Notes under the pieces: generated by a model | What the model was told of the DNA's origin: nothing | The model's input: only the letters and a program-made list of their open reading frames with translations | Databases searched by the model: none | Shown here: positions 629 to 29,050 of the stretch, piece after piece | How the letters are laid out: each line of letters opens with the position of its first letter | Position numbering within the stretch: the first letter of the stretch is position 1 | Assembly: GCA_017992605.1 (NCBI GenBank) | Contig: JAGOOG010000001.1 | Location: 1 to 64,000 of the forward strand | Length of the DNA stretch: 64,000 bases | Direction of reading: 5' to 3' | DNA from: Deltaproteobacteria bacterium | GTDB lineage: Bacteria > Desulfobacterota > Desulfomonilia > UBA1062 | Program-made: the position numbers and the translations under genes

Positions 629-730
629 GAGGCATTCATGGCCAGTGGTAAAGAAGATTCCCGTTCTCGTCCCTGCTGGAAGGGGCAGGTCAACGGAGGG
701 CCATGAGGGGCTAGACCGTGTACCCCACAG
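629..730. repeat. Degenerate direct duplicate of the Omp85 gene 3' end, copy A
   Basis: About 102 bases that closely match positions 965-1067, with a few substitutions and a one-base length difference. Both start at CGAGGCATTCATGGCCAGTG and run to the last codons of the Omp85 gene. Read on the minus strand this copy would encode the terminal residues VGYTV-stop, against VGYTF-stop in the real gene. The hairpin-forming CCCCTTCCC/GGGAGGGG of copy B is partly destroyed here. It abuts the inverted-repeat element at 731. It is a remnant, not a gene. Confidence 0.8.
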
Positions 731-961
731 AAAATGGGGTCGGAGTCGATTTTCCAATGGCAGCCACTGGAAAATGGAGTCAGGGTTGTTTTTCATCTAC
801 GACATGATCTGGTACAATAATCTACAGGTATATCGACTCCGAGCCCATTATTATGATCACATTTTATCCCTTACGAGAAAATCGACTCTGACCCCATTTT
901 ATCCGCTGACCCCATTTTACGGACCCCATTTTACGAGAAAATCGACTCTGACCCCATTTTA
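731..961. repeat. GGGGTC inverted-repeat element, locus 1
   Basis: An intergenic element bounded by inverted copies of one motif. The left end is AAAATGGGGTCGGAGTCGAT at 731 and the right end is the complement, ATCGACTCTGACCCCATTTT, ending near 960. A second, degenerate left-type copy lies at 770-792, and a degenerate right-type copy near 829-855. The right side carries a stack at 880-961: one full tip, two tips shortened to GCTGACCCCATTTTA and GGACCCCATTTTA, then another full tip. There is no transposase. The structure resembles a non-autonomous paired REP/REPIN or MITE-like element; this identity is inference. Confidence 0.75.
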
Positions 962-964
962 GTA

Positions 965-14138: not shown

Positions 14139-14175
14139 GGTCCTCTGCTTCAGAACCTCTGCACGTGATGGTTCC

Positions 14176-14350
14176 AAAATGGGGTCGGAGTCGATTATTC
14201 AAAATGTGCCCCAAACGGGGTCAGAGTCGATTATCCAACATGGGGTCTGTAACAAAATGGAGCCCCAAGGGGGTCAGAGGCATGTGTCAGGTTCTCGGAC
14301 CGTGAAATGATTTCCGTGACACTGAAAAAAATCGACTCCGACCCCATTTA
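14176..14350. repeat. GGGGTC inverted-repeat element, locus 2
   Basis: A 175-base element between the convergent NhaP2 and HAD genes, with inverted ends: AAAATGGGGTCGGAGTCGAT at 14176 and ATCGACTCCGACCCCATTT ending at about 14349. Internal part-copies include ACGGGGTCAGAGTCGATTA near 14216 and CATGGGGTCTGTAAC near 14238. The inner part also holds GTGTCA...TGACAC arms (14285-14321). It ends 8 bases from the HAD stop codon. No coding capacity. Confidence 0.75.
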
Positions 14351-14358
14351 TGGGGGGA

Positions 14359-25949: not shown

Positions 25950-27110
25950 ATGGATTATCAGCTTTCAGCGGACCAGGTGAAGCTGGAGCAGGACATTGCT
26001 GCTTTCTGCTCGGCAGAGATCGCACCACGGGCAGCGAAGCTGGAACGCAGTCCTGCCCGGGAGAAGGATGCCCTCATGAGGGACAACCTGAAAAGGCTCG
26101 GGAGAGCGGGGTGGCTGGCCGCCGGCCATGGGCCCGACGGGATGGACCTGGTCACGCTGTACCTGGTCGGGGAGGCGACCGCCAGGGCGTGCCCGGCCAC
26201 CTTCATCAGCATGCGTGCGAGCACGTTCCTGTGCGCGGGCGCAATCAGGCTTTTCGGAACCAAGGCCCAGAAGGACCGCTGTCTCACGGGTCTTCTGAGC
26301 GGCGAGACCGTCGGCGCGCTGGCCTACTCCGAGGACCAGGCGGGCACCGACATGGCCGGGATCACCGCCACCGCTCGGGAGGACCACGGGACATGGCTGC
26401 TCAGCGGCACCAAGGACATCGTGGTCAATGCCCCCATGGCGGACCTCTTCCTCGTGCTTGCCTGGCATGACCGTCCGGCAGGTCCGGATTCGGGCATGAG
26501 CCTCTTCCTCGTCGAGAAGAAGGCGGAGGGTCTCAGCGTCGGCCACCGGGTCGAAACGATGGGCCTGAAGGGCGCCCCTCTGGCATCGGTGACGCTGGAC
26601 GGGTGCGCTTCGGCAGGGATTCTCGGCGACGTGCCCGGCCAGGGTCTCGGGCAGATGAAGCGCCTCATGGCCATGGGTGCTGTCGGGATGGCTGCGTTGA
26701 GCGTCGGCATCGGGATGGCCTGCATGGAGATATCCACGGCTCACGCCAAGGCGAGGATGGCTTTCGGACGGAAGATCGGCATGTTCCAGGATGTAGGCTT
26801 CAAGCTGGCGGACATGTTCGCCTACAACGACCTCGGCAGGATGCTCGCCCTGCGGGCGGCCTGGGGCTTCAACACCGGTGACCGCGAAGCCGATGTTCTG
26901 GCATCGTGCGCCAAGCTCTTTGCCGGCGAGGCCGCGACGAAGATCGTGAACTGGGGCATGCAGATCTTTGCCGGCCACGGGTACCTCGCAGGCACCGACA
27001 TGGAGCGTCTCTACCGCGACGCCAAGTTCGGCGAGATCTGCGAGAGGACCTCCGAGATGCTCAGGCAGGAGATCTCTCAGCAGGAGCTCGACAGGTTCGT
27101 GACGGCATGA
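25950..27110 (+). CDS. Acyl-CoA dehydrogenase, second subunit or paralogue
   Basis: 386 residues, divergent from its neighbour. The substrate/FAD loop reads GALAYSEDQAGTD instead of the usual T-E-P-G-SG-SD pattern. The helix with AFGRKIGMFQDVGFKLADM and the FAGHGYLAGTD loop are typical. Here the catalytic glutamate is present as Glu365 in ERTSE (for the usual EGT-S). The first 110 residues are more variable than usual. The two dehydrogenases lie 25 bases apart and complement each other in active-site residues, which suggests a hetero-oligomer like the alpha2beta2 dehydrogenases of actinobacterial steroid degradation (inference). Electrons would go to an ETF, not encoded here. Confidence 0.9.
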   Translation: MDYQLSADQVKLEQDIAAFCSAEIAPRAAKLERSPAREKDALMRDNLKRLGRAGWLAAGHGPDGMDLVTLYLVGEATARACPATFISMRASTFLCAGAIRLFGTKAQKDRCLTGLLSGETVGALAYSEDQAGTDMAGITATAREDHGTWLLSGTKDIVVNAPMADLFLVLAWHDRPAGPDSGMSLFLVEKKAEGLSVGHRVETMGLKGAPLASVTLDGCASAGILGDVPGQGLGQMKRLMAMGAVGMAALSVGIGMACMEISTAHAKARMAFGRKIGMFQDVGFKLADMFAYNDLGRMLALRAAWGFNTGDREADVLASCAKLFAGEAATKIVNWGMQIFAGHGYLAGTDMERLYRDAKFGEICERTSEMLRQEISQQELDRFVTA

Positions 27111-27133
27111 GCGCTCTGGGCGAAAGATTTGAA

Positions 27134-27162
27134 CCCCTCGGAATCGTCATCTGCCCGAGGGG
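27134..27162 (+). terminator. Hairpin downstream of the second acyl-CoA dehydrogenase
   Basis: CCCCTCGG (27134-27141), a 13-base loop and CCGAGGGG (27155-27162): an 8-bp GC-rich stem 24 bases after the stop. No U-run follows, so it is at best a weak or Rho-assisted terminator, or an mRNA 3'-end stabiliser. Confidence 0.4.
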
Positions 27163-27188
27163 AGAGATGGTTATGCTGATGAGCTTCG

Positions 27189-27331
27189 GAAAATGGCGGA
27201 AAATGGGGTCAGCGGAAAATGGGGTCAGAGTCGATTTTTCATACCATACGACCAGAAGGATTGAGAATTTTGACTATAAAAAACGACTCCGACCCCATTT
27301 AACGCGACCCCATTTAACGACCCCATTTAAA
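27189..27331. repeat. GGGGTC inverted-repeat element, locus 3, inside the acyl-CoA cluster
   Basis: Occupies much of the 323-base gap between the dehydrogenase and carboxylase genes; the rest of the gap shows only a hairpin (27134) and the carboxylase ribosome site. The left side is stacked: GGAAAATGGC, GGAAAATGGGGTCAGC, then GGAAAATGGGGTCAGAGTCG. The right side mirrors it: CGACTCCGACCCCATTTAACG, CGACCCCATTTAACG and ACCCCATTTAA. The middle (27240-27280) is AT-rich. The symmetrical, progressively truncated tips suggest repeated insertion into, or slippage at, the element's own ends. No coding potential. Confidence 0.8.
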
Positions 27332-27433
27332 TCTGGCTTGCTTGGAGTGATAATCATTTTGATGGGGTTCAACGGGGCGGATGTAGATAAGACTGAAACA
27401 AACGTGAGTCTCTAAAACCAAGAGGGCAGAGCC

Positions 27434-29050
27434 ATGGACGTCATTGAAACCCGTATCGACACCAACTCGGACGAGTACAAGCGGAACTTCGAGGCCATGG
27501 AGCTCCTCGTGGCAGATCTCAAGGAGGAGCTGAGAAAGGCGAGGGAGGAACGGCCCCAGAAGGACGTCGACCGTTTGAAGAAACAGGGCAAGCTCCCTGT
27601 TCGTACCAAGCTCGACATGCTCCTGGACAGGAACACCCCGTTTCTCGAGATCGCGCCGCTGGCAGCCCGGGGCATGTACGACGGCAAGGTCCACGCGGCA
27701 GGCCTGGTGGCCGGCATCGGCATCGTGGAAGGCCACGAGGTGCTCGTGGTGGCCAGCGACGCCATGATCAAGGGCGGCGCAGTCTACCCCATGGGCGTCA
27801 AGAAGAACCTCAGGTGCCAGACCATCTGCATGGAGAACAGGCTGCCCATGGTGAGCCTTCTCGACTCGGCCGGTGCGTACCTGCCCCTGCAGTCCGAGAT
27901 CTTCCCGGACGTCGACGACGGCGGCCGGATCTTCTACAACCAGGCCGTCATCTCCAAGATGGGCATACCCCAGATAACCGCGGTCATGGGTCTGTGCACG
28001 GCAGGCGGGGCCTACGTACCGGCCATGTCCGACGAGGTGGTGCACGTCAAGGGGACCGGGGCCATCTTCCTGGGAGGCCCGCCGCTTGTCAAGGCCGCCA
28101 CGGGCGAGGAGGTGACCGCGGACCAGCTGGGCGGTGCAGAGGTACACTGCATCGAGTCGGGCGTTTCAGACTACTTCGCTGAGGACGACGCCCACGCCAT
28201 ATCCATCGTGCGCAAGATCGTAAAGGCCTTGCCGATGAACGAGAAGGCGAAGCTCACCATGCGCGAGCCAAGGCCTCCCATCTACGAACCCAGGGAGCTC
28301 TACGGGATCGTGAGCAGGGACCTGAAGGTGCCCTACGACTGCCGCGAGATCATCGCGCGCATGGTGGACGGCAGCGAGTTCCTCGAGTTCAAGGAGCTCT
28401 ACGGGCCAACCCTCGTGTGCGGGTTCGCCTCCATCCACGGCTACCCCGTGGGCATCCTGGGGAACAACGGGATCCTGTTCTCGGACAGCTCGCTCAAGGC
28501 CACCCAGTTCATCCAGCTCTGCGACCGGCGGGGCATCCCGCTGCTCTTCCTGCAGAACATCAACGGCTACATCATCGGCCGCCAGTACGAGAGACTCGGC
28601 ATCACCAAGGACGGCCACAAGATGGTCAACGCCGTTTCGACCAGCACGGTGCCGAAATTCACGGTCATCGTGGGCGCGTCGTTCGGGGCCGGCAACTACG
28701 GCATGTGCGGCCGGGCCTACTCACCGCGGTTCCTGTGGATGTGGCCGAACGCCCAGATCGGCGTCATGGGAGGCGAGCAGGCCGCAGGCGTGCTCATCAC
28801 GCTCAAGAACGACCAGAACGCCAAGGCGGGACTTCCCCCCATGACCCCGGATGAGGAGGACCTCATCCGGAAGCCCATCGTGGACGCCGCCAGGGCGCAG
28901 GGCGATGCCTACTACAGCACCGCGAACCTGTGGGATGACGGTATTCTCGACCCCGTGGACACGAGAAACGTCCTGGGGCTCGCCATCTCGGCGGCTCTGA
29001 ACGCGCCGCTGAGGGATGACAGGGTGGGATTCGGGATATTCAGGATGTAG
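27434..29050 (+). CDS. Acyl-CoA carboxylase carboxyltransferase (beta) subunit, methylcrotonyl/geranyl-CoA carboxylase type
   Basis: 538 residues with the two crotonase-fold carboxyltransferase domains. Oxyanion-hole glycine pairs are in MGLCTAGGAYVPAM (N-domain) and VGASFGAGNYGMCGRAYSPRF (C-domain), and the closing pattern WPNAQIGVMGGEQAAGVL is typical of MccB/LiuB/AtuC. In the acyl-binding loop it reads QNINGYIIG, where methylcrotonyl-CoA carboxylases usually have QNITGFMVG; this may point to a different branched substrate. It moves CO2 from biotin to the gamma-methyl of a beta-methyl-enoyl-CoA. The ribosome site is GAGGG. It is followed 14 bases on by biotin carboxylase. MccB is the family call; the substrate is not assigned. 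Confidence 0.92.
   Translation: MDVIETRIDTNSDEYKRNFEAMELLVADLKEELRKAREERPQKDVDRLKKQGKLPVRTKLDMLLDRNTPFLEIAPLAARGMYDGKVHAAGLVAGIGIVEGHEVLVVASDAMIKGGAVYPMGVKKNLRCQTICMENRLPMVSLLDSAGAYLPLQSEIFPDVDDGGRIFYNQAVISKMGIPQITAVMGLCTAGGAYVPAMSDEVVHVKGTGAIFLGGPPLVKAATGEEVTADQLGGAEVHCIESGVSDYFAEDDAHAISIVRKIVKALPMNEKAKLTMREPRPPIYEPRELYGIVSRDLKVPYDCREIIARMVDGSEFLEFKELYGPTLVCGFASIHGYPVGILGNNGILFSDSSLKATQFIQLCDRRGIPLLFLQNINGYIIGRQYERLGITKDGHKMVNAVSTSTVPKFTVIVGASFGAGNYGMCGRAYSPRFLWMWPNAQIGVMGGEQAAGVLITLKNDQNAKAGLPPMTPDEEDLIRKPIVDAARAQGDAYYSTANLWDDGILDPVDTRNVLGLAISAALNAPLRDDRVGFGIFRM

Follow-up and report, generated by a model that had tools for sequence, protein, structure and literature searches.

Di Nocera et al. 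(2013, PMC3733652) gave the names TIRYT and TIRtron to relatives of RAYTs that lie between terminal inverted repeats of the consensus GGGGWSAS, and a later survey (PMC6006769) places TIRYTs largely in TnpAREP subclass 2.1, which equals RAYT group 1. Other TnpAREP groups cleave at CT or CA dinucleotides, with a flexible choice (PMC8266576). The element studied here, at 27187-27333 of the window (the whole stretch of 64,000 nucleotides that was analysed), resembles TIRtron/TIRYT repeats in its GGGGWSAS inverted ends, in its single, dimeric and clustered dispersed copies and in the presence, in other genomes, of RAYT-like Y1 genes flanked by the same tips; it differs in that no intact TIRYT was found in its own genome. 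We found no description of truncated tip duplications with a fixed border for TIRtrons in the accessible parts of PMC3733652 and PMC6006769.

Three further systems deserve comparison. REPINs (Bertels and Rainey 2011, PMC3116915) share the two inverted units around a short centre, the single hairpin, the intergenic dispersal and the Y1 relatives, but the tips of our element carry neither a GTAG-type tag nor a GC-rich palindrome each; they are long inverted tips, and the pairing is between them. Since tag and palindrome are both lacking, the element is not a REPIN by definition. The IS200/IS605 family and its derivatives belong to the same Y1 HUH transposase superfamily but have no terminal inverted repeats, whereas inverted tips define the present element. 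BIMEs and clustered REP arrays also show tandem repeat units at one locus, flanking DNA included; here, by contrast, the units are truncated at fixed tip positions and stacked outward from the end of the element.

The host genome is a 2.71-Mb, 63-contig deltaproteobacterial MAG with about 15 dispersed paired-tip elements (tip AAAATGGGGTCAGAGTCGATTTT). The family tip consensus across copies is GGGGTCAG, and the paired copies give the family the dimer and cluster organisation of dispersed repeats. The features of the window to which we refer are the following.

729..963, no strand assigned: sister element 1; its right arm has two truncated tips, ending after GGGGTC and after GGGGTCAG, between full tips
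14174..14353, no strand assigned: sister element 2; its left arm is decayed and has several tips, its right arm only one
25950..27110, + strand: acyl-CoA dehydrogenase gene, upstream of the insertion (PF00441, PF02770, PF02771)
27187..27196, + strand: outermost left truncated tip CGGAAAATGG, 10 nt, ending at ATGG; tandem duplication of period 10 (sequence and repeat search)
27197..27212, + strand: second left truncated tip CGGAAAATGGGGTCAG, 16 nt, ending at GGGGTCAG; period 16 (sequence and repeat search)
27213..27239, + strand: full left tip (terminal inverted repeat) CGGAAAATGGGGTCAGAGTCGATTTTT; inverted-repeat arm with the exact 21-mer family tip
27240..27277, no strand assigned: unique centre of the element, 38 nt, without an assigned gene (sequence and repeat search)
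27278..27304, - strand: full right tip AAAAAACGACTCCGACCCCATTTAACG, with the GGGGTCGG variant; inverted-repeat arm
27305..27319, - strand: right truncated tip CGACCCCATTTAACG, period 15, ending at GGGGTCG (sequence and repeat search)
27320..27332, - strand: outermost right truncated tip ACCCCATTTAAAT, period 13 relative to the previous unit (sequence and repeat search)
27434..29050, + strand: acyl-CoA carboxylase carboxyltransferase gene, downstream of the insertion (PF01039, E 1e-137)

Left tips of 10, 16 and 27 nt thus face right tips of 27, 15 and 13 nt. The repeat search recovered the same units, with a full-tip pair of 28 nt that is 86% complementary, and the window contains 12 copies of the core AAATGGGGTC where 0.11 would be expected, 5 of the 12 lying within this element. 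This layout and the excess of the core confirm the nested tips reported in the earlier note, three on each side. Their mirror symmetry is only rough: the left side goes in steps of 10 and 16, the right side in steps of 15 and 13, and the linkers, read inward, are unlike (CGGAAAATGG on the left, CGTTAAATGG on the right). A 21-mer spanning tip and centre had no other genome match at up to two mismatches. The left full tip fits GGGGWSAS exactly (GGGGTCAG) and the right one is one base off (GGGGTCGG). On these sequence features, the element is a non-autonomous TIR dimer (MITE-like) of the TIRYT/TIRtron kind, which is a known kind.

The element sits between a dehydrogenase and a carboxyltransferase gene of the same strand, in a fat-breakdown operon; the exact limits of the gap are 27111-27433, a correction to the earlier note. 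The carboxyltransferase gene was located in nine other genomes of the family, the dehydrogenase being adjacent in seven of them, and the element was absent from the dehydrogenase-carboxyltransferase gap in all seven readable relatives. The comparison with sister genomes that had been proposed for this region therefore finds the site empty, and the element was most likely gained in this lineage, loss elsewhere being the alternative. The earlier picture of a mobile, REPIN-like element moving by a single-stranded route holds in part: some 15 dispersed copies, the empty sites, the paired layout and the link to Y1 enzymes in other genomes agree with it, but the strict REPIN label does not apply.

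Folding of the gap transcript, also proposed before, gave a strong predicted structure, both for the whole gap (27111-27433, z = -5.9) and, at -60.5 kcal/mol and z = -7.8, for a would-be transcript of the 147-nt element. Expression of the carboxylase genes may be affected, as the earlier note had raised. A terminator scan of the site found none, and one weak promoter-like match lies at 27326-27354. Two congeners have a strong hairpin in the same gap (L090:1390-1501, z = -7.1; L092:3220-3345, z = -7.6), with arms of 20-22 bp and the shared core GTCATCTGC; these hairpins differ from the window's element, and a decayed form of them is kept in the window at 27131-27185. Insertion into host hairpins was considered as a rule and rejected. 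At the present site the score is 11 and the mean of shuffles 6.5 (p ~0.025); however, no signal was seen in 14 further copies, and the joined flanks fold no better than shuffles (z = -0.6), so we make no such claim.

The exact 22-mer of the tip is found in 19 records, which include Betaproteobacteria, Nitrospirae and Deltaproteobacteria; among 24 genomes of the family and 42 of the class, the tip is present only in the own genome and, as a single copy, in one congener. No exact tip was found in viral contigs, and a literature search for the tip sequence itself returned only chance letter matches among the matches listed. By eye, the 12-nt flanks of 15 copies show no consistent direct repeat that could be a target-site duplication of the kind that flanks DDE-transposase MITEs. 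Sister element 1 is bracketed by a direct repeat of about 95 bp starting GAGGCATTCATGGCCAGTGGTAAAGAAGATTCCCGTTC (window 636-730 and 967-1060). In two Betaproteobacteria, the same tip element adjoins tRNA-like sequence at the homologous place (L067:248-320 and L072:5148-5215), so that one copy has been kept across species; in two Nitrospirae genomes, the element stands at the homologous site upstream of the same reading frame (L055:3918 and L070:3353).

The association with a transposase comes from other genomes. In Roseateles koreensis, a Y1 transposase gene (L057:3012-3731) is bounded by family tips, with two tips on its right. Its protein matches PF01797 (E 5.7e-12) and the NCBIfam model REP_Tyr_transpos (71 bits, below the cut-off of 80), with the HUH motif NHLHLL and the catalytic tyrosine region CLRYIELNPARAG. 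Homologues were found in 13 of 18 tip-sharing genomes, and many of their genes lie between GGGGTCA/GGGGTCG tips, the outer tips being stacked at some of them; tip-flanked Y1 genes are those of L057, L099-L106, L110, L111, L115 and L118. In L099, L100, L101, L102 and L103 (and on the downstream side in L104), the TIRYT-type gene sits between the same two neighbours, an upstream gene ending ADYIAGMTDRF... and a downstream one whose start resembles glutamate synthase large subunit, a constancy that matches the expectation for a fixed, domesticated single TIRYT-type copy. In the own assembly, no intact TIRYT flanked by the family tip was found, none of its three Y1 genes having such tips nearby. 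One of its proteins is RAYT-like (G000:C37:14161-14493; L029, L043), with a 273-aa frame, no adjoining family tips and an HUH motif that reads RVH, and is probably inactive. Hence, the mobilising enzyme is either missing from the assembly or lost.

How did the truncated tips arise? Left truncated tips carry GGAA...CAG and right ones TTAA...CG, each resembling the full tip of its own side: CGGAAAATGG is common to the left truncated and full tips, the 16-nt tip also having the CAG of the left full tip, while TTAAATGG and CG are common to the right truncated tips and the right full tip. Own-side flank and own-side A/G variant indicate that each side duplicated itself. Copying of one arm from the other was ruled out, as linkers and A/G variant differ between sides.

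Across all loci collected, 67 outward tandem duplications were found among 449 distinct tips. Counted from the first G of GGGG, their inner border lies at 0-2 in 14, at 3-5 in 3, at 6-8 in 31, at 9-13 in 9 and at 14 or beyond in 10. The preferred borders fall after AT(G)(G) or after GGGGTC(A)(G), both at this locus and in numerous unrelated genomes, with periods of 8-12 in the 0-2 group and 12-18 in the 6-8 group. Of the 43 borders at 7-22, 27 were entered at 7-8 (binomial p ~1e-14 against an even spread), a value that overstates the certainty, since the choice of loci was not independent and some of them are related. Each border can be placed to within about 1 nt, and the loci are phylogenetically non-independent. 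Many were seen once per genome. The tandem loci were largely selected by a pattern containing TGGGGTCA twice, which hides borders before the motif and leaves the contrast between 7-8 and 9-13 intact; most of the earlier-border class comes from the own-genome set, which was unselected, and from second tips.

We observed the number of copies, the shared motif, tip-flanked transposase genes in other genomes, the empty sites, the own-side character of the tips and the clustering of borders. The reading that we regard as probable adds the enzyme and the order of events: a non-autonomous TIRYT/TIRtron-type dimer that a Y1 transposase inserted after the split from relatives, and whose additional tips arose afterwards, locally and separately at each end. 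The enzyme that placed the element in the gap would have been a Y1 HUH tyrosine transposase, which works on single-stranded DNA, a role suggested by the family link in other genomes; this probably happened after the species had split from its sequenced relatives. The nested tips would have followed, through separate outward tandem duplications at each end that took in the outermost 8-18 bp of the element and a few flank bases. Each may have been a break-and-join at the motif, for which unproductive nicking and rejoining by the transposase is the likeliest candidate. A bolder version, possible but less likely than not, takes the truncated tips as footprints of a TIRYT that nicks element ends at GGGGTC(A)(G), more rarely where GGGG begins, and joins the nicked end outward; working on a single end each time, it would let elements grow ladders of partial ends of fixed length. 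The GGGGTCA border is compatible with the CT/CA cleavage of other TnpAREP groups, a fit that does not prove transposase cleavage; in the accessible parts of the TIRYT/TnpAREP literature, we found neither a demonstration of cleavage at GGGGTCA for subclass 2.1 nor biochemistry on it.

The main rival is that replication slips at the foot of a strong hairpin: a polymerase stalled part-way into the stem would recopy flank and produce outward duplications of the outer part of the stem on either side. The very stable predicted RNA hairpin speaks for it, as do truncated tips that lie mostly outside the full tip and duplications that are tandem and local. However, the junctions lack microhomology: the extra identity beyond the period, for borders up to 8, averages 0.75 nt, which is about chance, and microhomology is therefore not needed for tip duplications. 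Moreover, the borders hold at GGGGTC(A)(G) even where other sequence stands behind the motif (GGGGTCAGGTC, GGGGTCAGGCC, GGGGTCAAATC) and stem stability differs. Because the border follows a conserved motif and no microhomology is required, we infer break-and-join over ordinary slippage, which we hold to be possible but rather unlikely.

The earlier note had concluded that both ends grew in step, for example by repeated excision and re-insertion of a paired, REPIN-like single-stranded intermediate. If this took place at its own site, each round would leave a pair of truncated tips. At 27187-27333, several points favour it: there are two truncated tips per side, the outer tips can pair so that the whole element is predicted to fold as one long stem, and two events would suffice in place of four. 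Other copies tell against it. Of 58 distinct paired elements, 39 had no truncated tips, 17 had them on a single side and 2 on both sides (Fisher p = 1); that is, they are one-sided in 17 of the 19 elements that have them, with no association between sides, and in-step growth is not the general rule. Symmetric tips are thus largely absent from other copies, an outcome that the earlier note itself had named as refuting its reading, the few two-sided cases being the present element, L151 and, from another genome and in favour of paired growth, L180. Hand counts of any extra tip gave 6 elements with both sides, 3 left, 2 right and 4 none in the own genome, and 3 both, 3 left, 3 right and 9 none in G056; pooled, they show at most a weak association of sides (p = 0.085). 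The sides are uneven in C12:17901 (1 left, 3 right) and C12:25330 (2 left, 1 right), the step lengths of the present element are unequal, and flank and A/G variant are shared on the own side only. We therefore do not retain growth in step, and consider such an intermediate improbable at this site.

Nested insertion, in which an element landed inside an older one whose tips were left outside, has a model case in the own genome at C12:10234-10373 (L033), where outer AGAGTCG/CGACTCT surrounds inner GGAGTCG/CGACTCC, each pair internally matched; this is the strongest example of one element sitting within another. At 27187-27333, however, each outer tip has the linker and variant of its own side's full tip and nothing else of an older element remains, so nested insertion may explain C12:10234-10373 and is a doubtful account, of little probability, of the present locus. 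That the element is instead a regulatory RNA structure conserved in the operon, and not mobile, is highly improbable: the strong predicted fold and the different strong hairpin of the congeners L090 and L092 in the same gap would suit it, but the empty homologous gaps mostly refute it, the genome has the tips at some 15 sites and the sole Rfam match at the site falls far below its cut-off, none being credible.

Returning to the reading of a TIRYT-type dimer with locally added tips, this locus illustrates that "symmetric nested" repeats can arise through independent local events. To the known kind of element, it adds a pattern in which end duplications favour two borders within a motif common to TIRYT elements across phyla. 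If these borders mark transposase action, tip ladders would reveal the cleavage site of TnpAREP subclass 2.1 directly from genomes.
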